DNA of 64,000 nucleotides, taken from contig CAIIXF020000302.1 of the NCBI GenBank assembly GCA_903813345.2, positions 26,001 to 90,000 of the forward strand. The letters run 5' to 3'. Below are positions 105 through 64,000 of this stretch, in pieces. The position numbers and the translations under genes are program-made. This DNA is from Owenia fusiformis (taxonomy: Eukaryota > Annelida > Polychaeta > Sabellida > Oweniidae). The notes beneath the pieces were generated by a model that did no database searches, was not told the origin of the DNA, and worked only from the letters and a program-made list of their open reading frames with translations. The stretch's first letter is position 1, and each line of letters begins with the position of its first letter.

Positions 105-3100
105 CAGGGTGACAAAAAGTGTCACCCATATTATGTAATGATTTTGTCTGCAAAATGTCTGACTTGTTCTTGAGCACATTGAAACTTTACTTTATGTAGC
201 AACTCCACAAGAGGTTTCAGGTGACTAGCTCAACCAGATGCACTTTTAAAAGCGCTACAAGATATGCTCTAAATGCCGTCTATCCCACGCACACTGCTGG
301 ATTCTCCGGGCAGTTATTGACAACATTCATCTGACTCAAACCCTCCAGGTTTTTATCTCTGGGGGTGCTAGAAAGATCTGTGAATGAAACATTCCCCTAA
401 TCCATAGAAGTTCCGAAGATATTGATCACTAAAAAGATGAGGGCCATTTCGGTGGAAAATGCTTTGCCTGTAGAATTCAGGTAAGCCTGATATTTAGACT
501 ACATATTGTAATGCTCATAAGCATGCTAGATAGGTATCAATTTAAATAATTCAAGTTTTTGAGGCAATTTAAAAAAAAGCAACAGACCTTTTTTCTAAAT
601 CGGTTTTAATGCCGATAAAGATATTAAATGATAGCAGCTCTATGGGATGGGCATGTCACTGAGTTTTAGCGTTTTTAACCCCCATAGCAAAATATTTTAG
701 GGGGTACTATGATATTAGTTCATAACTCAAAGGATATATTAACTATTGTTCTGATATCTACAGTATACATTACTAGTACAGAGATAAATACTATCCCTAA
801 GTTGTATGTTAATATCTTCATGGGTCTCAGAAAAAATACAATTAATAGGAAAAAGATTTGCAATTTTCTTCATTTTTTGTTTTGCCAATTTAACATTAGT
901 ATATCCAAGCAAAAGATGACACCTTTAACAGTTCAGAGTAGTATTCTAACAACATTTCCAAGCTATTTATGATATTGTAATACATCTATTGTAGTGATTA
1001 AGTACTATTTTGTAATTTTAATAAGACTTTTTAGTGCCCTACCCCTGAAAAATAGAAAAAATGTGCGTGGTCAGGGTGGAAAAGGGGTTCACTGTATACC
1101 AAAAATTGGTGGGGGTCCTAAGCGGAACCCCCATATATCAGTATGTTCCCATACGAATCTGTCAAATTTCAATGAGTTCCTATACCAACTAAATTAACAC
1201 CCAAAAGCCATACCAGATATCTTATAGATATAAGACCAATATAGGACCAATGCCATGCCAGTCCAGATATAAGACCAATACCATACCAGTCCAGATATAA
1301 GAACAATACCATAGCAAATATCCAGATATAAGACCAATGCCATACCAGTCCAGATATAAAGCCAATGTCATGGCAAATGTCCAGATATAGGACGGATACC
1401 ATACCAGTCAAGATATAAGACCAATGCCATAGCAAATGTCAAGATATATGACCAATGTCATACCAGCCCAGATATAAGACCAATGCCATAGCAAATGTCC
1501 AGATATAGGACCAATGCCATAGCAAATGTCCAGATATAGGACCAATCCCATACCACTCCAGATATAAGACCAATGCCGTTGCAAATATCCAGATAGAGGA
1601 CCAATGTCATACAAAATGTCCAAATATAGGACCAATGCCATACATGTCCAGATATAAGACAAATGCCATTGCAAATGTCCAGATATAGGACCAATGTCAT
1701 AGCAAATGCCCTGATATAAGGTCAATACCATAGCAAATGTCTTAATAAGACCAATGAGTTGTCAATTTTCTATCATAATTTCCAAACATGGTGGTTTGAA
1801 AGCCGATAGTTTACCATAATGTGAAGATACATATCCCATTAAACCTGCATATTTTATATTTTGCATTCTCTCATCCACTACTACTTGTATATGTCTTTTT
1901 AAAATTCTCTTTTTTCTAGCATGGAAAATCCTCACTTCAGCAAATGCATGACTGATTATTTTTTTGCCCAAACTGCACTAGACTAAAGCCATATCACAAG
2001 TGTGAGTTAATATATTATCCATCTTTCTCATACCAGAAAGTGGAAAAGTCTGACCATTGCAAAACCTCAAAGTAACAATTTGGGGGCATTCTCATACCAG
2101 ATCATAAAATTAGTAGGGTGTCTTACAATGTGTAAATCATGGCAAAAATTTTGATAAAACTATCAGTTACCATCATTTGACCATATAAGTCCTCATTGAG
2201 CCATGAAGCGTCAGAGCCAAGTAGCTTAGAGAATGCTTTTCATCACATATCCTTAATTTAGTCCTATACGTGTATATTTGGCATGGCATTGGTCCTATGT
2301 TTGAACATTTGGTATGGCATTGGTCTTATATTTTGACATTTGGTATGACTTTCAGGTATCATTTTGGCTGGTATGAGAACACATTAGAATTTGACTTGAC
2401 TAGATTGCTATGGGTACATACTAATGCGTATCAACCTAGAACCCCCGCCTAAATTTGTATACAGTGAACACCCCTCTCCCAGGACTATATATGGTTAAAT
2501 TACACGTGACCTCGTACAAGGGACACTATAGTACTTGTGCATGATGACCACCATAGTCTGGTTGCTCAGATGAGATCAATTGATGAATAAAATGTTTAGA
2601 CTTTATTCCAATGTCTAGACTTTATTCCAACCTCTCCAGTGTATGATTACAAAAGATTCCATTATGATACTATGTACTAAATTGAAAACTTATATATGAA
2701 ATATGTTTAGTCCTATATTCTAGTAATAAGTGAATTTAAATGTCATATAACGTTTGAAGATGAATTGAATCCATTGATTTGCTTTCTATCAATATGTTTC
2801 TAGTTTAATGCTGCAAAATGATAAAACTGACCACTTTCCTATATTTTACAGGGGTTGGGTAGTATAAAGTTATATGAAAATTACAAAATAGTACTTGACA
2901 CTTAATTTTAATAAATGTTTAACAATATAACATATAGCTAGGAAATGTTGTTATAATACTACTTCGGGCTGTAAAAGCTATCATCTTTTGCTTGAAGCTA
3001 CAAATATAAAATTGGCAACACAAAAAGTGACAAAAATTGCATATGTTTTTCCTATTTACTGCATTTTTCAGAGAGCAATGAAGATATCAACCTATAACTT

Positions 3101-4322: not shown

Positions 4323-4502
4323 ATATTATTGCATTATCACCAAAATCTGTCATTTCCTGCTTCCATTCTATGCCAATACCAGATTGATCCTTACAAATAG
4401 TGACATCACTTGCCAGATTAATAGGAATATCGTAGCTTGACCTGCATGTTGTATTCACCTCAACGTATGGCGTTACATATTTTGGTAGCACTATCATAAC
4501 TC
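4323..4502 (-). CDS. Exon 25 (last recognised) of the FN3-like gene
   Basis: Acceptor TTTAAG before 4502 and phase 1 entry match the phase 1 exit of exon 24. The peptide includes TTCRSSYDIPINLASDVTIC with two Cys. A good donor (GTATGT) would end the exon at 4323, again in phase 1. If it is not used, the frame runs to a TAG at 4297-4299 and this is the terminal exon. I cannot decide which. Confidence 0.6.
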
Positions 4503-54161: not shown

Positions 54162-54552
54162 GGATATTTAGCTCTCTTCTTCATCCCGATAAACATCTGA
54201 TGAATGTAGATGTTTGCTCCCCATGTACATCACATTATATTATACAATTTATAAAACTCTAAATGAGTCGCTTCAGACGAAAACAAATAATTTAACAAAG
54301 TGTTTTTCAAAATGCTTTTTGAATCATCTGTTCCCATTTAACCACAGTACAGTATAAATGCACATATATTTATTGGATCCTGAATTTAATCAATGCGATG
54401 AATTTACATGAAATTAACAGACACTGCATGCGAACAATAACAACTATTTACCAATGAAATTGTTTTCATCAAAAAAGGCCACGCGTTAGCGTATCTACAT
54501 CGTGAATTCTGAAAATTTCGTCCTGAAATGACAAATTAAACTCTTGCGCCAG
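54162..54552. other. Spacer, no gene seen
   Basis: AT-rich sequence between the FN3-like gene and the G/T-rich array. Upstream exons of the gene, if any, must lie beyond the arrays or were missed. Confidence 0.4.
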
Positions 54553-54829
54553 GCTGGTTTTCGGGAGTGGTGACTTAGACAATGGCTTGAGACATCACCC
54601 GCACATGTCATGCAGTCTGTGTTAATAGTGAGAGGTCTCGGTCGAGGGGTCTGGGAGAAAAGGTCTAGTAGCTAAGCTTCCCCAAACCACCGTCAGTATT
54701 TATGTGACAGGTAGATTGGTTGATCCTAGGGTTATGACATCTGTGTGTCATTTCCTGCAGTCTTCATTAATGTAGAGATAGGCTGGACATCCCGATCATT
54801 CAGTTGTGTTAGAGATAATTTTTGGTTAA

Positions 54830-55915
54830 GAAAAGTTGTGGTTTTGGTTTTGTGTTTAAGTTTCATGTATGGTGGTGTATCTTTTATGTTGATGGTAGAT
54901 ATATTGGAAGAGTTGTAAATTCGTTCGTCTTTAGTAGCATTTGGATGTGTGTAGTGTGAGTTTGTGGTGGGTTCCCCGTTTGTTAAAGGTTTGGGTGTTT
55001 AGTCTGGTGTTTGAGCTACGTGTTGGTCTGTGTGTAGTGGTGGTAGTATATCTTATTGTCAAGATATTAACTTGACTAGGGGATCTATTTCGACGTGCTG
55101 GGTTGTATTTTGGCTTTATCGAAGTTTTGCATTATTTTGGTTCGTAAATTTCGTGTATGTTTGGCGGCGTTTGTGGTATCTATGTGGTGGCTAAGTTGTT
55201 TTTCAATGGTTTGGGTGTGTAGTGTCATGTCTGAGGTTCATTTTGGTGTGTGTGTTATGGTAGTAGCATATCTTGTTGTTGAGATATTAATTTGGTTTTG
55301 GAGGCTGTCTTCCCGTGATTTCATTATGTTTTGATTATCCTGTGTTTGTGGTTTGTTGGGATCGTGTAGCGTATTGATTAATTGCATCAAGTTGCGGTCA
55401 GTTTGTTTCTTTTAATTTGTTTTGTTTGTTTTGTTTGTTGTTTACCCTTTATGGCGAGGTGTTTTTATTTTGATACGATGTGTGCGTTGGGGGAGTTGTT
55501 AGATTGTTCGCGATTGGTTGTATTTTGGTTTTATCGGAGTTTTGTGGTATTTTGGGTTGTAAATTTCGTGTTTGTTTTGTGGCGTTTTTTGGTAAGTAAA
55601 TGGTAGGTAAGTTGTTTTTCAACGGTTTGGGTGTGTAGTGTCATGTCTAAGCTTTATTTCGATGTATATGTTGTGGTCGTAGCATCTCTTGTTATTGAGG
55701 TATTAACTTGTTTCTGGGGGCTGTCTTACCGTGTTTTCAATTTGTTGATTGTCCCGTGTTTGTGTTTTGTCGGGATGGTGTATGCGTTTTGGTGAATTGT
55801 AGATCACGATTTTGTCGGTTTGTTTGTTAAAATTTGTTTCGTTTGTTTTGTTTGTTGATATGAGTTTTATATGATGTACGGGTAATGTGTTTGATAGTCT
55901 GTTGTATATGTTTGT
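54830..55915. repeat. G/T-rich body of unit 1
   Basis: The plus strand is strongly enriched in G and T and depleted of C and A for more than 1 kb, with about three sub-repeats. Open frames on the minus strand are Pro/Asn/Thr-rich as a consequence and not believable genes. Confidence 0.8.
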
Positions 55916-56255
55916 GTTTTACATGTACTTCCATTGTTTTTTAAAGAATGGGCTGTTTCTAAATAGGGTTCCCGGTTGGGGAAACCTGGTTTGGTTGGTT
56001 GTTTGTGAGTAAATGCGTTGTTTTTTAAAATATGAATTGGAGTGAGTGTTTATCTCCATAAGGTTATAAAGTGTATATATTTTTGTATTGCCGGGTCGGC
56101 AGAAAGATTGTTGAATATTCGGGACGCTGATAAGAAATGTTCGAAACACCAAGTGTGGTAAGATGGTACAGCCCTACTACAAAATGTGTCCGATCGTTTT
56201 TGAGATGAAATATACTTGGTATTTGTCCATAAGCTGAGCAATGTGACATACGAGG

Positions 56256-56440
56256 GTTGATCATAAAGTTCTCATAATATCTCTCTAATTTCTTTATTTT
56301 TCAATATTTTCCTATGAAATTTTCACAGAATGTGCAGCATGGAATGGTTTATTAATCCAGCTAACAATATTTAGAATAACGGAAACATTGAATGAGAAAT
56401 GGTTGCCATAGTAACTTGAAATCAAGTTTTTTTTATTTTT
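56256..56440 (+). mobile_element. Truncated mariner-type end
   Basis: ACGAGGGTTGATCATAAAGT begins with TA and CGAGGG, a spelling close to the termini of the mariner element at 23110. No matching opposite end is present, so it is a truncated copy inserted in the array between box B and box A. Confidence 0.6.
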
Positions 56441-56799
56441 GGAAATGGTGACTTAGACAATGTCTTGAGATATCACCTGTTTTAAACACGCACATGTCAT
56501 GCAATCTGTGTTTATGGTGAGAGGTCTCAGTCGGGGGGCCTGGCAGGCAAGGTCTTGTAGCTAAGCTTCCCCTAACCACCGTCAGTACTCATGTGACGGG
56601 TAGTGTATATTTGGTAGATCCTAGGGTAATGACATTGGTGTGTTATTCCCTATCTTCATTCACGTAGAGAGAGGCCGGACATCCCGATCCTGTAGCGGAT
56701 CTTCTCCCTTATATGTTGGTCATTATAAGGGCCCATGATGTTTCGAACTCATGGGGGTATCCCATGATTGTTCTTCCTCAGCGGCCGAATGAATGTTGT

Positions 56800-58735
56800 A
56801 TGTGATTTATTGTGATTTTATTGTGAATTATAATGCTGTTTTATTTCTATCATTCTGTTGTATTTTAATAGGTTTCCCGTATTCGTTTTTAGCGGGAGGG
56901 GGTGGTTGTTGATGCGTATTGGTTTATTGCATAAAGGCGTGGTCAGTTTATTGATGAATTTTAGTTTGGTTTGGTTTGTGGTTAAGCCATATGGTCATGT
57001 ATGTTATATGTTGATATTGTGTGTATTTAAAGGGTTGTTGGCTTGTTCGTGTTTGGTTGTATTTTGTGGCATTTTGTGGTGTTTTCAATTTGTTGAGTTG
57101 GTGTGCGTTTGGCGGTGTCTGTGGTGGGTTGAGGGTAGGTAAATTACATTTTGGTGGTTCAGGTGGTAAGTTTACTGTTTCAGCTTTCCGTTGGTATATG
57201 TGATATGTTGCTAGCATATCTTGTTGTTAAGATATTAACTTGAATGTATGGTTTAATGGCCCGTATTTTAAATATTTTGGTTTTCATATATTTGTGTTTT
57301 ATCGGGAGGGTGTATGTGTATTGGTTAATTGCATCGGGGTATGGTCGGTTCAATGTTGAAATTGGATCTGGTTGTTTTGTTCATTGTTTCAGCTTCATGG
57401 TCAGGTATATGTTATGTTCATATTGTGTGTATTAGAAGAGTTGTTGACTTTTTCGTGTTTGGTCGTGTTTTGGTGTTTTCGGCATTTTGCGGTATTTTCG
57501 ATTTGTTGAGTTGGTTTGAGTTTGGTGGTGACTAGGATGGGTCTATGGTAGGTAAATTGTCTTTTGATGGTTCAGGTGGCTTGTGTAATGTTTTAGCTTT
57601 CCGTTGGTGTGTGCATTATGTTCGTGGCATATCTCGTTGTTGAGATATTAACTTGAATGTAGGGTTTGATGGCCCGTATTTCAAATATTTTGATTTTCTC
57701 ATATTTGTGTTTTATCGGGAGGGTGTATGCGTATTGGTTAATTGCATCATGGCATGGTCAGTTCGATGTTGAAATTTTAATTTGGTTGTTTTGTTCATTG
57801 TGTCGGCTTCAGGGCCAGGAATATGTAATGTTCATATTATTAGAAGGGTTGTTAACTTTCCTGTGTTTGGAAGTGTTTTGGTGTTTTCGGCATCTTGCGG
57901 TATTTTCGATTCTTTAAGTTGGTTTGAGTTTGGCGGTGTTTAGGGTAGGTCTATGATAGGTAAATCGTTTTTCTGTTGGTTCAGGCGGCTTGTTTAATGT
58001 TTTTGCTTCCTGTTGGTGTGTGTATTATGTTCGTGGTATATCTTGTTGTTGAGATATTAACTTGAATGTAGGGTTTAATCGTCCGTATTTCAAATATTTT
58101 GATTTTCCCATATTTGTGTTGTATCGGGAGGGTGATGCTTATTGGTTGATTGTGTCTGTTTGTGGTTGGTTTATTGTTTAAGTCTGGTTTGGTTGTGTTT
58201 TTTCGTTGTAGAGAACGGGTGTTTCGTTCTACTCGTATGAAATGAGTATTTTAATCTAAGTTTTCTGGTAAAACTTAGAATGTCAGTCGGGAGTTCCCGC
58301 TCTAGTGTTTTTAAGTTTGGGGTGGGAATAAACTTGAGTCCCTTAGAGAGAACAGAGTGTTCTGCTTCTGACGGTGTGTAATCCGACAAGTTAACAACGA
58401 GCTTAGTTTTCGCTGCTTTGGTTTTGTGTGTTTTATGAGTGTTTGAAAGGATGTATTGTTTTTTGGGCTTTGTAAAGTTTGTTGTTGCGTTTCCTAGCCA
58501 TATTAGTAGTTAGGTTGATTCTTAGTTGTCAGTGGTACGTGTTATATGTGTATCAGTGGCCAATTATGTATCTAGGTCACTGTAATTATGTGTGTATCAG
58601 GTATGTTCCTGAATTAAGTGTGGTTATGGGAGTAGTGATTAAGAAGACAATAGGAAGATTCCCTTGTTAGAATGTATATTTTGAAGTGTTGGTTTCGTGT
58701 TGGTTGTTATGAAGTAATTGTTTATATTTTGGTTT
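56800..58735. repeat. G/T-rich body of unit 2
   Basis: It carries three sub-repeats of about 411-416 bp (marks at 57212, 57628, 58039) plus a stretch at 58200-58400 that is less skewed and not present in unit 1 as far as I can see. The extra length of unit 2 is due to this stretch and the sub-repeat number. Confidence 0.8.
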
Positions 58736-59439
58736 GGAAAGTGTTTTCCAGTCGGGGTATTATTTGGTTGGTTGTTTATGAGTAAATGCGTATTGTTTTA
58801 ATTTGCGAATTGGAGTTTGTGTGTGTCTCCAAACTGTTGTAAGGTGTGTATGTTTTTTGTTGCCAGGTCGGCAAGATTGTTACATGTTTGGCACGCTGCT
58901 AAGGAAAGTTCGAAACACCAAGTATGGTAAGATGGTGCAGCCCCTCCTGTACAAAAATGTGTATGATCTTTAATGAAATATACAAGGTAGTTGTCAATAA
59001 GCTGAGCGATGGGACCTAGCCCGAAGGTTTGGTACGCAGGTTATTCACTTATTATGGGTTTATCCTTATGGCTAATGGAGACAGCCCTAATATCATATTT
59101 TTGGGAGTGGTGACTTAGACAATGTCTTGAGACATCACCTGTATTAAACACGCACATGTCATGCAATCTGTGTTGTTTATGGTGAGAGGATTGGGTCGGG
59201 GGGCCTGGCAGACAAGGTCTAGTAGCTAAGCTTCCCCTAACCAGGTGCATATATAGGCCTACAATATCTAATTTAATTTTAATAACATCATGGGCTTTCG
59301 TACTGAAAAAAGAAAAGATTATTTAACGCATTGGATATTTTTGCTTTTAGAATTGATTTGACGTTAATCCCTATTTAATGATCAGATCTTGAAGTTTGGA
59401 GCATAGCTACAATAGTATACAGCAATTTTGATTTACACA

Positions 59440-60345
59440 CCCCAAAAACATGGATTAGTCATTAACTTTTGCATTGATTTCGAAAAAGTATTGAGATTTG
59501 TAGTAATTCATGACATTATGTTCCCGGGTAGTTTAATAAAATACTTGACAGAACTCAATAGAACATGGCGGATGCTTTACAGGGGAACTAGTTCGCCATG
59601 CACATCCCGGGATGCACATACAGTAGCGTTGTATGATATTGTACAAGTTCTGTAAAGTAGCCTACAATCAGTGCACCTTTGTCCAGTGGATAATTTATTA
59701 CATGTTTGCATATTGATTTCGAAAAAGTATTGAGATTTGTAGTAATTCATGACATTCAGATCCCGGGTAGTTTAACAAAATACTTGAAAGAACTCAATAG
59801 AACATGGCGGATGCTTTACAGGGGAACCAGTTCGCCATGCACATCCCGGGATGCACATACAGTAGCGTTGTATGATATTGTACAAGTTCTGTAAAGTAGG
59901 CTACAATATTTACAGTGCACCTTTGTCCAGTAGATAATATATTACATGTTTGCATATTGATTTCGAAAAAGTATTGAGATTTGTAGTAATTCATGGCATT
60001 CAGTTCCTTGGTAGTTTAACAAAATACTTGAAAGAACTCAACAGAACATGGCAGATGCTTTACAGGGGAACCAGTTCGCAATGCACATCCCGGGATGCAC
60101 ATACAGTAGCGTTGTATGATATTGTACAAGTTCTGTAAAGTAGCCTACAATATTTACAGCGCACCTTTGTCCAGCGGATACTATATTACATTTTTTGCAC
60201 CGATTTCGGAAAAGTATTGAGATTTGTAGTAATTTAGAATTTTCAACTCCTGGGTAGTTAAAATACTGAATGGAACAGGGCAGATGCTAATAGGGGAACC
60301 AGTTCGCCATGCGCATACAGTGGCGTTGTATGTTTTATTGACAAA
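59440..60345. repeat. Satellite subarray 1, about 239-244 bp units
   Basis: Four units start (at GATTTCG) near 59476, 59715, 59959 and 60202. Each has GATTTCGAAAAAGTATTGAG, GTAGTAATTCATGACATT, CAGGGGAACCAGTTCGCCAT and GTACAAGTTCTGTAAAGTAG. The first three also share a perfect 12-bp palindrome, CATCCCGGGATG. Units 1-3 are nearly identical; unit 4 is degenerate and lacks the palindrome. Confidence 0.95.
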
Positions 60346-61099
60346 TACATAATATTTTATGATTTGTTTGCAATGATTTCCGGAAAGTATACTCCTAATA
60401 CTGAAAAACAACATGCTTGCCTTGTGTACTGAGCTTCATTGCCAAGACTGATTTCAGGAAAAACAAAACTAATAAAAACGGTGAAAGAACTGCTCACGGA
60501 CAACTTCTAGATTAGGTGATTGACGTTAAACGAATATGTACCAGTATTATTTGCAGAAATTGCTCGAATAGAATTCAGACTATTGAAAGGGAATTAAATT
60601 CAATTAATAATAAGATCAAGCAGTACAGATCGCAGGAATATCAATCATGATGGAATCTTAAATACATGTTCGTCTTAATATTGTCTTTAGAGCAAATGTT
60701 TACAAGTCTGCAAATCCAGGTATCTCCCTTACAAATAAAATGCATTCACCAAAAATATAATTACTTTTCGATATCTTTTTTACAGCATATCTTAACTATA
60801 AGTGTTTATATGTGAACTGAACAGTCATCAACTTCCTGATATTAAATTTAATTGGTTCACTTCAATCAAATTACTTTCGATTATATTTAGCAAATAAAAC
60901 GTTTATCGATTTTGCGAGGGTCGTTTTAAATTTACCTAGATGAAAGTGAAGCGAGGTAGGACTTCCCATAATGCCATTATCAAAGGTTCAAATACTAACT
61001 TGCTGATTGGAGTAAAATCAACATGAGCATTACCTCATGTGTTTATAATCTAAATATAGACATTGAAAGATTGTGCGCTATTGGTCAAAATTACCGACA
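60346..61099. other. Spacer between satellite subarrays
   Basis: AT-rich sequence without satellite units, exons or RNA genes. Confidence 0.5.
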
Positions 61100-63060
61100 T
61101 AAACATTCAATTCGGTTTCAGAAAAGTATTGAAAAGTAATTCATGACATTCAGTTCCCGAGCAGTTTCACAAAATAAATCTATGAAATATCTCAATAGAA
61201 CAGAGCAGATGCTCACAGGGGAACCAGTTCGCCATGCACATACACAGGCGTTGTATGACACACTGTATTGACAAGTACATAATATTTTATATGTTTGCAT
61301 TGATTTCAGAAAAGAATTGAGATTTGTTGTAATTCATTCAAAATAAATCTATGAAATAACTCAATGGAACAGGGCAGATGCTCACAGGGGAACCAGTTCG
61401 CCATGCACATAATGACATTCAATTTCAAAGCAGTTATACAAACAAATCTATGAAATAACTCAAATAACAGGGCGGACGCTTGATACATTGATTTCGGGGA
61501 ATCATTGAGATCATTTGTAGTAGTTCATGACATTCAGTTCCCGGGCAGTTTCACAAATAAATCTATGAAATAACTCAATTGAACAGGGCGGACGCTTACA
61601 GGGGAACCAGTTCGCCATGTACATACAATGACGTTGTATGATTCACCACTACTGTATTGGCAGTTTCACAAAATAAATATGCCTACATGAAATAACTCAA
61701 TTGAACAGAGCGGACGCTTGATACATTGATTTCGGGGAAGTATTGAGATTTGTAGTATTTCAGTTCCCGGTCAATTTCACTAATGAATCAATGAAATAAT
61801 TCAATTGAACAGGGCGGACGCTTACAGGGGAACCAGTTCGCCATGTACATACAATGACGTTGTATGATACACCACTACTGTATTGGCAGTTTCACAAAAT
61901 AAATATGCCTACATGAAATAACTCAATTGAACAGGGCGGACGCTTGATATATTGATTTCTGGGAAGTATTGAGATTTGTAGTATTTCAGTTCCCGGTCAA
62001 TTTCACTAATGAATCAATGAAATAATTCAATTGAACAGAGCGGATGCTTACAGGGGAACCAGTTCGCCATGCACATACAGTGGCGTTGTGTAATACACTG
62101 TATTGACAAGAACATATATTTTTGCATTGGTTTCGGAAAAGTATTGAGACTGTAGAAATTCATGGCATTCAATTCCAATGGCAGTTTGACCATAGGCTTT
62201 CAATTAGAAATAAATCTATGAAATAACTCAATTGAACAGGGCGGACGCTTGAAACATTGATTTCGGGGAATCATTGAGATCATTTGTAGTAGTTCATGAC
62301 ATTCAGTTCCCGGTCAGTTTCACAAATAAATTTATGAAATAACTCAATTGAACAGGGCGGACGCTTACAGGGGAACCAGTTCGCCATGTACATACAATGA
62401 CGTTGTATGATACACCACTACTGTATTGGCAGTTTCACAAAATAAATATGCCTACATGAAATAACTCAATTGAACAGGGCGGACGCTTGATACATTGATT
62501 TCTGGGAAGTATTGAGATTTGTAGTATTTCAGTTCCCGGTCAATTTCACTAATGAATCAATGAAATAAGTCAATTGAACAGAGCGGATGCTTACAGGGGA
62601 ACCAGTTCGCCATGCACATACAGCATTTTTGCATTGGTTTCGGAAAAGTATTGAGACTGTAGAAATTCATGACATTCAATTCCAATGGCAGTTTTACCAT
62701 AGGCTTTCAATTAGAAATAAATCTATGAAATAACTCAATTGAACAGGGTGGACGCGTGATACATTGATTTCGGGGAGGTATTGAGATTTGTAGTATAATC
62801 CATGACATTCAGTTCCCGGGCAGTTTCTCAAGTAAATCTATGAAATAACTCAATTGAACAGGGCGGATACTAACAGGGGAACCAGTTTGCCATGCACATA
62901 CAGTGGCATTGTATGATACACTGTATTGACAAGTACATACTATTTTATATGTTTGCATTGGTTTCGGAAAAGTATTGAGACCGAGTTATTCACGACATTC
63001 AATTCCCAGGCAGTTTTACAAATAAATCTATGAAATAACTCAAGACATTTTTACAGATTT
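61100..63060. repeat. Satellite subarray 2, diverged units of about 170-320 bp
   Basis: The conserved box CAGGGGAACCAGTTCGCCAT recurs near 61215, 61384, 61599, 61825, 62051, 62368, 62594 and 62874. Between boxes a higher-order pattern alternates GAACAGGGCGGACGCTTGAT or CTTACAGGGG blocks with GGCAGTTTCACAAAATAAAT blocks. A spacing of about 226 bp recurs three times. The subarray is related to subarray 1 but older and rearranged. Confidence 0.9.
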
Positions 63061-64000
63061 AAATCAAATTAATAACAGTTAACTGTCTGTCGAATTTAAA
63101 GGTTCGCTTATGTTTGCAAGCAACGCATTTGTGTAATGCAATGATTCGATATCCTTTTAAGATAAACAGAAATATACGAAAATATGAATTTTTTCACTTC
63201 AAACATTATGTTTAAGTCCACATAATAATGAAATAGCCTAATCCCCTTCTTGTTCAGTGGGACTTTGATTTCAGCCCTGAATATACCAAAGTCCCCGTGT
63301 CATACTACAAATAGCATTAAACGTTAATACAATGTTCAGTATTTAAAACAACTGAAACAAGGCTTCTGGTTTTCATAATATTTTCATTTTAGACATGTTT
63401 GAGTATTTTTAAGGTTTAAAACAAACCATTATTATTATGGAGCTATCACACTTATGACATATGTGCTCATCGTTCGACAACGTGTGAATACTTTGCTGGG
63501 GCAGACAGCGGGACACAGCATGTATACCGTTTGATATCTAATCTGCTAAATATTATTCTTTTTACAGGTTCTTTCTATGAATGGAATGCTTCAGACATGA
63601 CGGACATATGAATTTTGGGGTTATACATGGACACATGCGAGGAAGGCACAACGTAAAGAAGGACGGGGGTCTTCACTCAAGGAAAGGTGTAAAACGCATC
63701 ATGTGATTCAGCAGAAACAGTTCAGATATAATTTAGAACTAAGGTTGCATTCATGAATTCGGTTGCCGGCTGGTGGTTTAACCTACTTTTTATCAGTGTT
63801 AAACTCAATTACTTATAATGGCATGTACTACTCGTGAGTTAAATGAGGAGTTTAATTCATCTGCCGGATGCCGGCTGGTGGTTTAACCTAGTTTTTAAGC
63901 CATTTTAAACATAAATGAAGGAATAGTGACAGTTACTATTCATATTTAAATGATTTGGACATGAATTAGCCTGGTTGGTGAATCTGTCAGCCGTCAGTTG
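63061..64000. other. Right end of the window, no gene seen
   Basis: It contains a small hairpin (GGGACTTTG...CAAAGTCCC, about 63259-63296) and two direct copies of GCCGGCTGGTGGTTTAACCT about 106 bp apart (63765 and 63871). No exon is recognised. Confidence 0.5.

Follow-up and report, generated by a model that had tools for sequence, protein, structure and literature searches.

The G/T-rich repeat array analysed here is, with a probability of about 0.85, a non-autonomous partial tandem of a Penelope-like retroelement (PLE), carried in reverse orientation as a passenger inside a TIR-type element, derived from a lineage without a recognisable endonuclease and bearing as its box A a 3' terminal repeat with a predicted hammerhead ribozyme. 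The window, a 64,000-nucleotide stretch of the Owenia fusiformis genome (contig CAIIXF020000302.1, positions 26,001 to 90,000 of the forward strand), had been read from its letters as holding a tandem array at 54553-59250, with ordered units of about 1.9 and 2.7 kb, boxes A and B, and 0.41-kb sub-repeats. This layout was borne out (Table 1): the three copies of box A are spaced by 1878/1889 and 2662/2665 bp, box B is present twice, the sub-repeats at 57068-58152 have a period of 413 bp (2.6 copies), and related sub-repeat copies lie 416 bp apart in the first unit. The units are indeed repeated, but a local satellite expansion was ruled out, since the composite is dispersed and recurs as a whole at eight further genomic loci (95-97% over 4-5 kb), at one of these in pieces. 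The extent first given was too narrow, as the mobile unit is larger, beginning at 53836 and ending beyond the window. Overall, both the array and its skew hold up, yet the repeat is not of the undescribed kind that the sequence-only reading had envisaged: a genome search placed box A homologues beside a reverse-transcriptase (RT) core, the very observation which that reading had listed as contrary to its proposal.

Table 1. Features of the PLE-derived array and its carrier; positions are those of the window.
Feature	Position	Strand	Basis
PLE-derived insertion, 5'-truncated partial tandem	54556..59243	minus = sense	homology to 6.3-kb PLE unit; RT relic
Box A1, PLE 3' end, without ribozyme half	54556..54797	-	homology; outer ends of C1 insertion at the matching unit position
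Body 1, sub-repeats, keto skew 0.51	54820..55990	-	
Box B1	55990..56250	-	
Spacer between B1 and A2, no skew, missing from unit 2	56250..56433	none	
Box A2, full terminal repeat including predicted ribozyme	56434..56785	-	
Predicted hammerhead ribozyme, predicted cut between 56678 and 56677	56673..56786	-	descriptor scan with control; pair count; solo ends
Body 2, 413-bp sub-repeats, keto skew 0.47	56785..58186	-	
Relic ORF, 112 aa, homologous to N-terminal part of PLE RT	58171..58509	-	
Box B2	58763..59025	-	
Box A3, truncated rest of upstream terminal repeat	59096..59243	-	
244-bp tandem array of carrier, outside PLE part, no skew	59473..60234	none	
Carrier, part in window	53836..64000	none	left terminus 53836; right terminus beyond window and contig

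Elsewhere in the genome, an intact 634-aa RT ORF lies in homologous tandem units of 6.3 kb, between homologues of box A and of the body, which agrees with the earlier suggestion of a retroelement terminal region. This ORF matches RVT_1 in Pfam (6e-13), had no match among solved structures, and shares 33% identity with residues 44-653 of a PLE-type protein of 800 aa encoded in the same genome (640 alignment columns), ending where the latter runs on for ~147 residues into a C-terminal, endonuclease-like part (read by eye, with no Pfam call). No GIY-YIG endonuclease was found in the 634-aa ORF, and the second ORF of the unit gave no Pfam match; a missing GIY-YIG domain does not exclude PLE membership, because known endonuclease-deficient PLEs, Coprina among them, also lack it. 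The PLE-type RT is thus found in the related unit, whereas the window, previously thought to encode no protein family, retains on its minus strand (58509-58174) the N-terminal relic, 61% identical to the corresponding part of the 634-aa ORF; Pfam searches of four window ORFs returned no family. The same strand matches non-coding parts of the 6.3-kb unit at 60-70%. Terminal repeats occur in tandem or inverted partial copies, namely boxes A1, A2 and A3 of the window, the C518 tandem units and a head-to-head insertion on C1. In the intact unit the sub-repeats precede the RT, while in the window the RT relic precedes the sub-repeats, and therefore no parent element is in hand. One placed PLE copy is interstitial (C1:50.08 of 62.2 Mb), the C518 and C420 tandem arrays are unplaced, and TTAGGG in tandem (two copies or more) did not appear in the seven loci tested. 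An LTR retrotransposon is not supported, given that the protein relic is PLE-type and that A3 and A1 form no matched LTR pair, nor is a functional small protein encoded by the 112-aa ORF (pN/pS 1.38 among 9 copies; L009 and L011, where the motif was not found, were left out).

The carrier, of TIR type, measures at least 16 kb. Its left terminus has an identical first base in 7/7 copies read, with unrelated flanks; the right terminus was read in other copies, and 13 copies have both ends (pairing used the 22 of 28 left-end matches that begin at base 1, and 17 right-end matches, one partial match being left out). In both copies with a right end that was read, TA is found at either end; the TIR is imperfect and may be akin to the CAGT-like TIR of Tc1 elements. 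No Tc1/mariner transposase was detected among 19 short ORFs of two carrier copies (9 + 10), which cover part of the carrier, and a TIR search made before the right end was known gave no clear result. The first bases of the spacer between B1 and A2 resemble the end of a mariner-like insert in the C10 copy, so that its origin as an insertion is possible, not proven.

The extreme G/T asymmetry reported at the outset was confirmed: against the keto skews of the two bodies, the 57 one-kb stretches in the rest of the window have a mean of 0.008 (sd 0.057, maximum 0.164), and 33 one-kb stretches of other loci range from -0.27 to 0.10, moderate skews thus occurring elsewhere. The sense strand of the PLE lineage is A/C-rich in coding and non-coding parts alike (amino skew 0.33-0.44), with values of -0.03 to 0.16 in five other PLE-type ORFs. 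The edges of the skew coincide with the PLE boundary. The G/T excess of the array is the complement of this A/C-rich sense strand, and the asymmetry is inherited. Its strength and its length of 1-2 kb per unit had been taken as a possible sign that one strand is persistently exposed (by R-loops, directional transcription or directional replication); a skew made in this way at these loci, on an otherwise ordinary repeat, is very improbable and not needed, because the intact PLE unit is equally skewed throughout and the adjoining carrier sequence on both sides has a skew of about zero. By analogy with the Drosophila telomere retrotransposons, it is weakly favoured that the lineage may be kept A/C-rich by a telomere-type strand composition. 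It is also improbable that the carrier has domesticated the array, or that selection keeps it as a non-coding part with, for example, a regulatory or replication role: the array is kept in the compared carrier copies and partly also in a diverged family (C2:2.0 Mb, C1:31.4 Mb), but some of its pieces differ from one carrier family to another or are absent, and the relic ORF is unconstrained. An inherited PLE passenger is the reading retained for both the skew and the array.

Comparison with the PLE units makes box A the PLE 3' terminal repeat, with a putative hammerhead ribozyme in its 5' half on the sense strand. The motif has CUGANGA and GAAA cores, three stems and an NUH cut site. A descriptor drawn up after the motif had been seen, and which had to tolerate one extra base after A9, gave 29 matches in the window and loci, all in box A, and one match in 4.83 Mb of random control. 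In an alignment restricted to copies fitting the relaxed pattern (18 distinct of 32 sequences), 98.4% of cells were paired and three pairs were changed on both sides (compensated), although one of the five measures, further pair types, was not above shuffles (218/500). The loci that did not fit and stand outside this count are L007, L008, L009, L056, L057, L067 and L069, with L007 and L008 having lost bases just past the cleavage site. Of the nested hairpins proposed for box A, those of the 3' half do not surpass shuffled sequences in folding (z -0.9, 34/200 shuffles as good), whereas the 5' half does (z -2.5 and -3.1). Minimum-energy folds of the 5' half form stem II and not stems I and III, the hammerhead not being the optimum. 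Rfam at the gathering threshold yielded no match in the whole window, and so no hammerhead call; below threshold only unrelated bacterial families appeared, and box A2 gave no match. Box B was rejected as a second ribozyme: TTCGAAAC is common to boxes A and B, yet the descriptor had no match in box B.

Solo copies of box A bear on the predicted cut. Among 49 matches examined, seven have solo ends, one is ambiguous (C12:22898525, stopping at 56677 or, with an indel, at 56685), and the other 41 run on or break off solely through indels, as judged by eye, one of them (C4:20463387) being a tandem joint at 56705. The seven represent six independent insertions, since C4:15528479 and C8:20447625 have one flank in common. 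In all six, the end lies inward of the predicted cut by 0-9 nt: three coincide with the cut and three fall short of it by 3-9 nt (probabilities of 3e-5 and 8e-5 for evenly spread ends, computed only after the data had been seen). These positions suggest that RNA cut by the predicted ribozyme may serve as template for the solo copies. They could instead record a reverse transcriptase halted by a stable RNA fold, a less likely but serious alternative with which the folding of the 5' half and the three short ends would agree; if the fold blocked the enzyme at its base, however, synthesis should halt ~5 nt earlier, and the three exact ends lie past the copied 3' strand of stem I, this weighing being one of six ends, few in number.

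Under the preferred reading, the carrier now spreads the partial tandem as a passenger, transcripts of tandem PLEs would be cut within box A by an active ribozyme, and the cut RNA would be copied from the box-A 3' end up to the cut, giving solo copies, with PLE insertion taking place at existing DNA breaks. The computed basis comprises the homology to the RT unit, the relic ORF, the skew common to the unit and absent from the carrier, the ribozyme core and pairing, and the carrier ends. Both broken ends may prime reverse transcription, because both outer ends of the C1 insertion correspond to the RNA 3' end, its inner joint has a 4-base overlap, and it shows no clear target-site duplication. 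Inspection by eye of the flanks of solo box-A and C1 insertions found no convincing one. The complete scheme, in which an endonuclease-less PLE of telomere-like composition would insert at double-strand breaks, both ends priming from the box-A 3' end and the hammerhead cut setting the 5' end of the copied RNA, is speculative and rather unlikely to hold in full. If true, solo box-A copies would be genomic footprints of ribozyme cleavage during PLE insertion. As to the role of hammerheads in PLEs, work with purified protein of an anole PLE showed that insertion in vitro did not require the ribozyme, and RNA-seq reads with either end at its cut were absent (PMC11167929). With solo 5' ends that lie on the predicted cut or slightly within it, cleavage in vivo becomes testable from the genome. 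This array further illustrates that strong strand asymmetry of an anonymous repeat can be retroelement heritage rather than a local product, and it invites a look at whether endonuclease-bearing PLEs differ in strand composition from those that lack the enzyme.

Among known systems, the endonuclease-deficient PLEs (Athena of bdelloid rotifers and the Terminons, the latter with hammerheads according to a passage in PMC7229834) are alike in their PLE-type RT, an ORF without recognised endonuclease and more than one ORF per unit; unlike these, the placed copy here is interstitial, with no TTAGGG pairs in the seven loci. The one-strand composition bias resembles that of HeT-A, TART and TAHRE of Drosophila telomeres, one strand of which is described as extremely G-poor along the element (PMC5537684), but those are non-LTR elements of another class, and the O. 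fusiformis genome has ordinary TTAGGG arrays. Canonical PLEs (Penelope, Poseidon; pseudo-LTRs) share the partial tandems, inverted copies and terminal repeats found here, as a section of PMC3846280 sets out, and their hammerhead is located near the repeat (PMC11167929); the present lineage differs in lacking the C-terminal endonuclease, in its strongly A/C-rich sense strand and in its predicted hammerhead, which is larger, its core having one more A and its stem III being long and branched. Finally, animal retrozymes, which carry type I hammerheads as stated in a portion of PMC7229834, are like the solo copies short, dispersed, non-autonomous and hammerhead-related, whereas solo box-A copies keep only the sequence after the cut.

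The tandem array at 54556-59243, which lies in the window at the end of a 90-kb contig of the 498-Mb Owenia fusiformis genome, is an endonuclease-less derivative of a Penelope-like retroelement (PLE) that is strongly asymmetric between its strands, contains a predicted hammerhead ribozyme of non-standard form and is enclosed in a large TIR-type element. The window sequence bore out the box A, box B, 0.41-kb sub-repeats and G/T excess described in the sequence-only reading. Its interpretation was partly right: the array is a PLE relic, but the statement that it encodes no protein family fails on a minus-strand ORF of 112 aa, which shares 61% identity with the N-terminal region of a 634-aa ORF carrying an RVT_1 domain (Pfam, E=6e-13). 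The search it proposed, for box A beside a coding core elsewhere, recovered a homologue in an RT-bearing 6.3-kb unit, in which box A matches the window minus strand (the PLE sense strand) at 70%, and a 1.86-kb non-coding stretch that covers A3, B2 and part of the body does so at 60%. Eleven full copies of the 634-aa ORF were found, eight on contig C518 in 6.3-kb tandem units, two on C420 and one at C1:50.08 Mb; possibly the unplaced contigs derive from a single array. C302 (the window's contig) and C518 measure exactly 90,000 and 50,000 bases, and C293, C190 and C292 exactly 25,000 each; figures this round suggest trimming of the unplaced contigs. The ORF shares 33% identity with residues 44-653 of an 800-aa PLE-type ORF on C5, which extends about 147 residues past the point where the former stops; by eye these residues look like the GIY-YIG endonuclease of PLEs, and Pfam made no endonuclease call on them.

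In the intact unit the sub-repeats precede the RT and in the window the RT relic precedes the sub-repeats; therefore, the intact unit is a cousin of the window array and not its parent. Relic and intact RT differ by a dS of 1.74 (near saturation) and a dN of 0.39, and pN/pS among nine array copies of the relic is 1.38; the relic ORF is a former protein, now unconstrained. The insertion on C1 consists of two parts of the 6.3-kb unit, of unequal extent and placed head to head. On either side its outer end falls at one and the same point of the unit, where box A ends (positions 4411 and 4412); the inner joint overlaps by 4 bases, and no clear target duplication was visible by eye. Box A is thus the PLE 3' terminal repeat, and the window array, with a truncated box A (A3) at its 5' end and A1 at its 3' end, is a partial tandem.

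Coordinates of features in the window and at related loci
Feature	Position	Details
Carrier left terminus	window 53836	TAC[AC]GTAC
Carrier left end	window 53836-54440	98-99% to one carrier family, 87-89% to the family matching its array
Array segment	window 55104-59254	96% to the carrier family whose left end differs more
RT relic ORF	window 58509-58174, minus strand	112 aa
Predicted ribozyme cut	between window 56678 and 56677	
Tandem array	window 1228-1756	periods 31/59/90 bp
Tandem array	window 59473-60234	244 bp; part of carrier
Tandem array	window 61533-62098	226 bp; part of carrier
Carrier segment (~394 bp)	window 60705-61105	recurs within a 0.7-kb MITE
0.7-kb MITE	L037 944-1647, L038, L039	TIR TAGCCTTGCCCCAAGTCGG; 9-bp duplications in two copies examined
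Second ORF of PLE unit	L023 3344-4132	262 aa; no Pfam match
Head-to-head PLE insertion	C1:50078365-50086642	
Polinton/adintovirus-like insertion (7.2 kb)	C10 ~11393290-11400502 (L019 end to L022)	in carrier copy; 6-bp duplication CACTTG; ends AGT...ACT; one ORF matches Pox_A32-type packaging ATPase, 3.5e-11
Mariner-like insertion (1.07 kb)	C10 ~11382034-11383100 (L004 end)	outer end of box A3; inverted terminal repeats begin TACGAGGGTTGTCCC

The two array bodies have keto skews of 0.51 and 0.47. The remainder of the window, taken in 57 one-kb stretches, averages 0.008 (sd 0.057), and 33 stretches at other loci range from -0.27 to 0.10. Amino skew (A+C-G-T, sense strand) reaches 0.37 in the 634-aa ORF (0.46 at third positions), 0.33 in the second, 262-aa ORF of the unit, 0.39 and 0.44 in PLE non-coding parts, and 0.40 and 0.27 in two fragments of closer relatives; five PLE-type ORFs from other loci (L026, L043-L046), among which L046 almost duplicates the C-terminus of L026, gave 0.14, 0.13, 0.10, -0.03 and 0.16. 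Carrier sequence adjoining the array is near zero (keto skew -0.03, 0.00 and -0.02); therefore the skew follows the PLE boundary, and that of the array is inherited from the PLE. Drosophila telomere retrotransposons are described as having an extreme shortage of G on the strand that reads 5' to 3' in the direction of the centromere (PMC5537684). Several observations count against a telomere link here: in Athena elements G-quadruplex potential occurs only in embedded telomeric repeats (PMC10088271), the sole placed copy of the intact unit is interstitial, TTAGGG pairs were absent from the seven loci tested, and ordinary TTAGGG arrays are present in the genome (19,125 pattern matches). A literature search found no paper linking PLEs with strand asymmetry.

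The 5' half of box A reads, on the sense strand, GGCCG-CTGAGGA-A-[stem II]-GAAA-CATC...GATGTC-CGGCC, a predicted hammerhead that has the two cores, all three stems and, as its triplet, GUC. A descriptor made after the motif was seen, allowing one extra base after A9 and a stem III of ≤140 nt, gave 29 matches in the window and loci L001-L070, several of them near-identical copies and all on the sense strand of box A, and one match in 4.83 Mb of Markov-1 sequence. Among 18 distinct rows preselected with a relaxed pattern, 98.4% of cells pair (24-51% in slid versions) and three pairs are changed on both sides; further pair types in these rows did not exceed shuffles (218/500). This half is more stably folded than its shuffled versions (z -2.5 and -3.1), and its minimum-energy structures contain stem II plus other hairpins, without stems I and III. 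Rfam models made no hammerhead call in box A; the extra A and the length and branching of stem III may be the reason. For the extra core nucleotide there is a precedent, a viroid hammerhead reportedly described by De la Pena and Flores in 2001 (cited in PMC3705267). Rare minimal type I hammerheads have been reported from PLEs and Terminons (PMC7229834). Box A2 of L007 and L008 (C7 and C3 copies) lacks about 13 bp directly past the predicted cleavage site, which should disable the predicted ribozyme.

A 20-base box-A motif (≤2 mismatches) has 49 genome matches; its reversed control has none. Six independent solo copies, short isolated box-A insertions, end at 56668, 56672, 56674 and, in three cases, 56677 (window coordinates), another ends ambiguously at 56677 or 56685, and the other 41 rows continue into the ribozyme half or stop by indels, one of which marks a tandem joint (56705). 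All six short copies examined, five of them independent, have their 3' end close to 56434. The simplest reading would be that ribozyme-cut RNA was copied from the 3' end of box A to the cut. Reverse transcriptase halting at an RNA fold is a fair alternative for the solo-copy ends, but its stops would be expected ahead of stem I, some 5 nt before the three exact ends are reached. In an anole PLE, the ribozyme required protein to cut and was dispensable for insertion in vitro, no RNA-seq reads started or ended at its site, and the PLE protein cleaved both DNA strands and extended them (PMC11167929).

Box B has at least 34 genome matches (about 40 of 196 candidates scored) and box A at least 40 or 41 (about 40 of 272). 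Eight loci (L004-L011) align to the window across 4-5 kb at 95-97% identity; in one of these loci the match is fragmented, with a single fragment at 92%. The match extends beyond the array on both sides. The left terminus is the same base in all seven copies examined, the window included, with unrelated flanks; the right termini of the C10 and C1 copies are alike and repeat the left end imperfectly in inverted orientation. When 22 left ends were paired with 16 right ends, 13 copies had both, at distances of 16.2 to 29.5 kb; longer copies can contain later insertions, as seen in the C10 copy. The ends, which start TACAGT and have TA on either side, are reminiscent of Tc1/mariner elements; 19 short ORFs from two copies gave no transposase match. 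It is this TIR-type element that now carries the array, and by its similarities to different carrier families the window copy looks like a mosaic.

The solo-copy ends and the strand asymmetry deserve a specialist's attention. Most parts of the array already have precedents, and in being a partial tandem it resembles other PLEs, for which such arrangements are described (PMC3846280).
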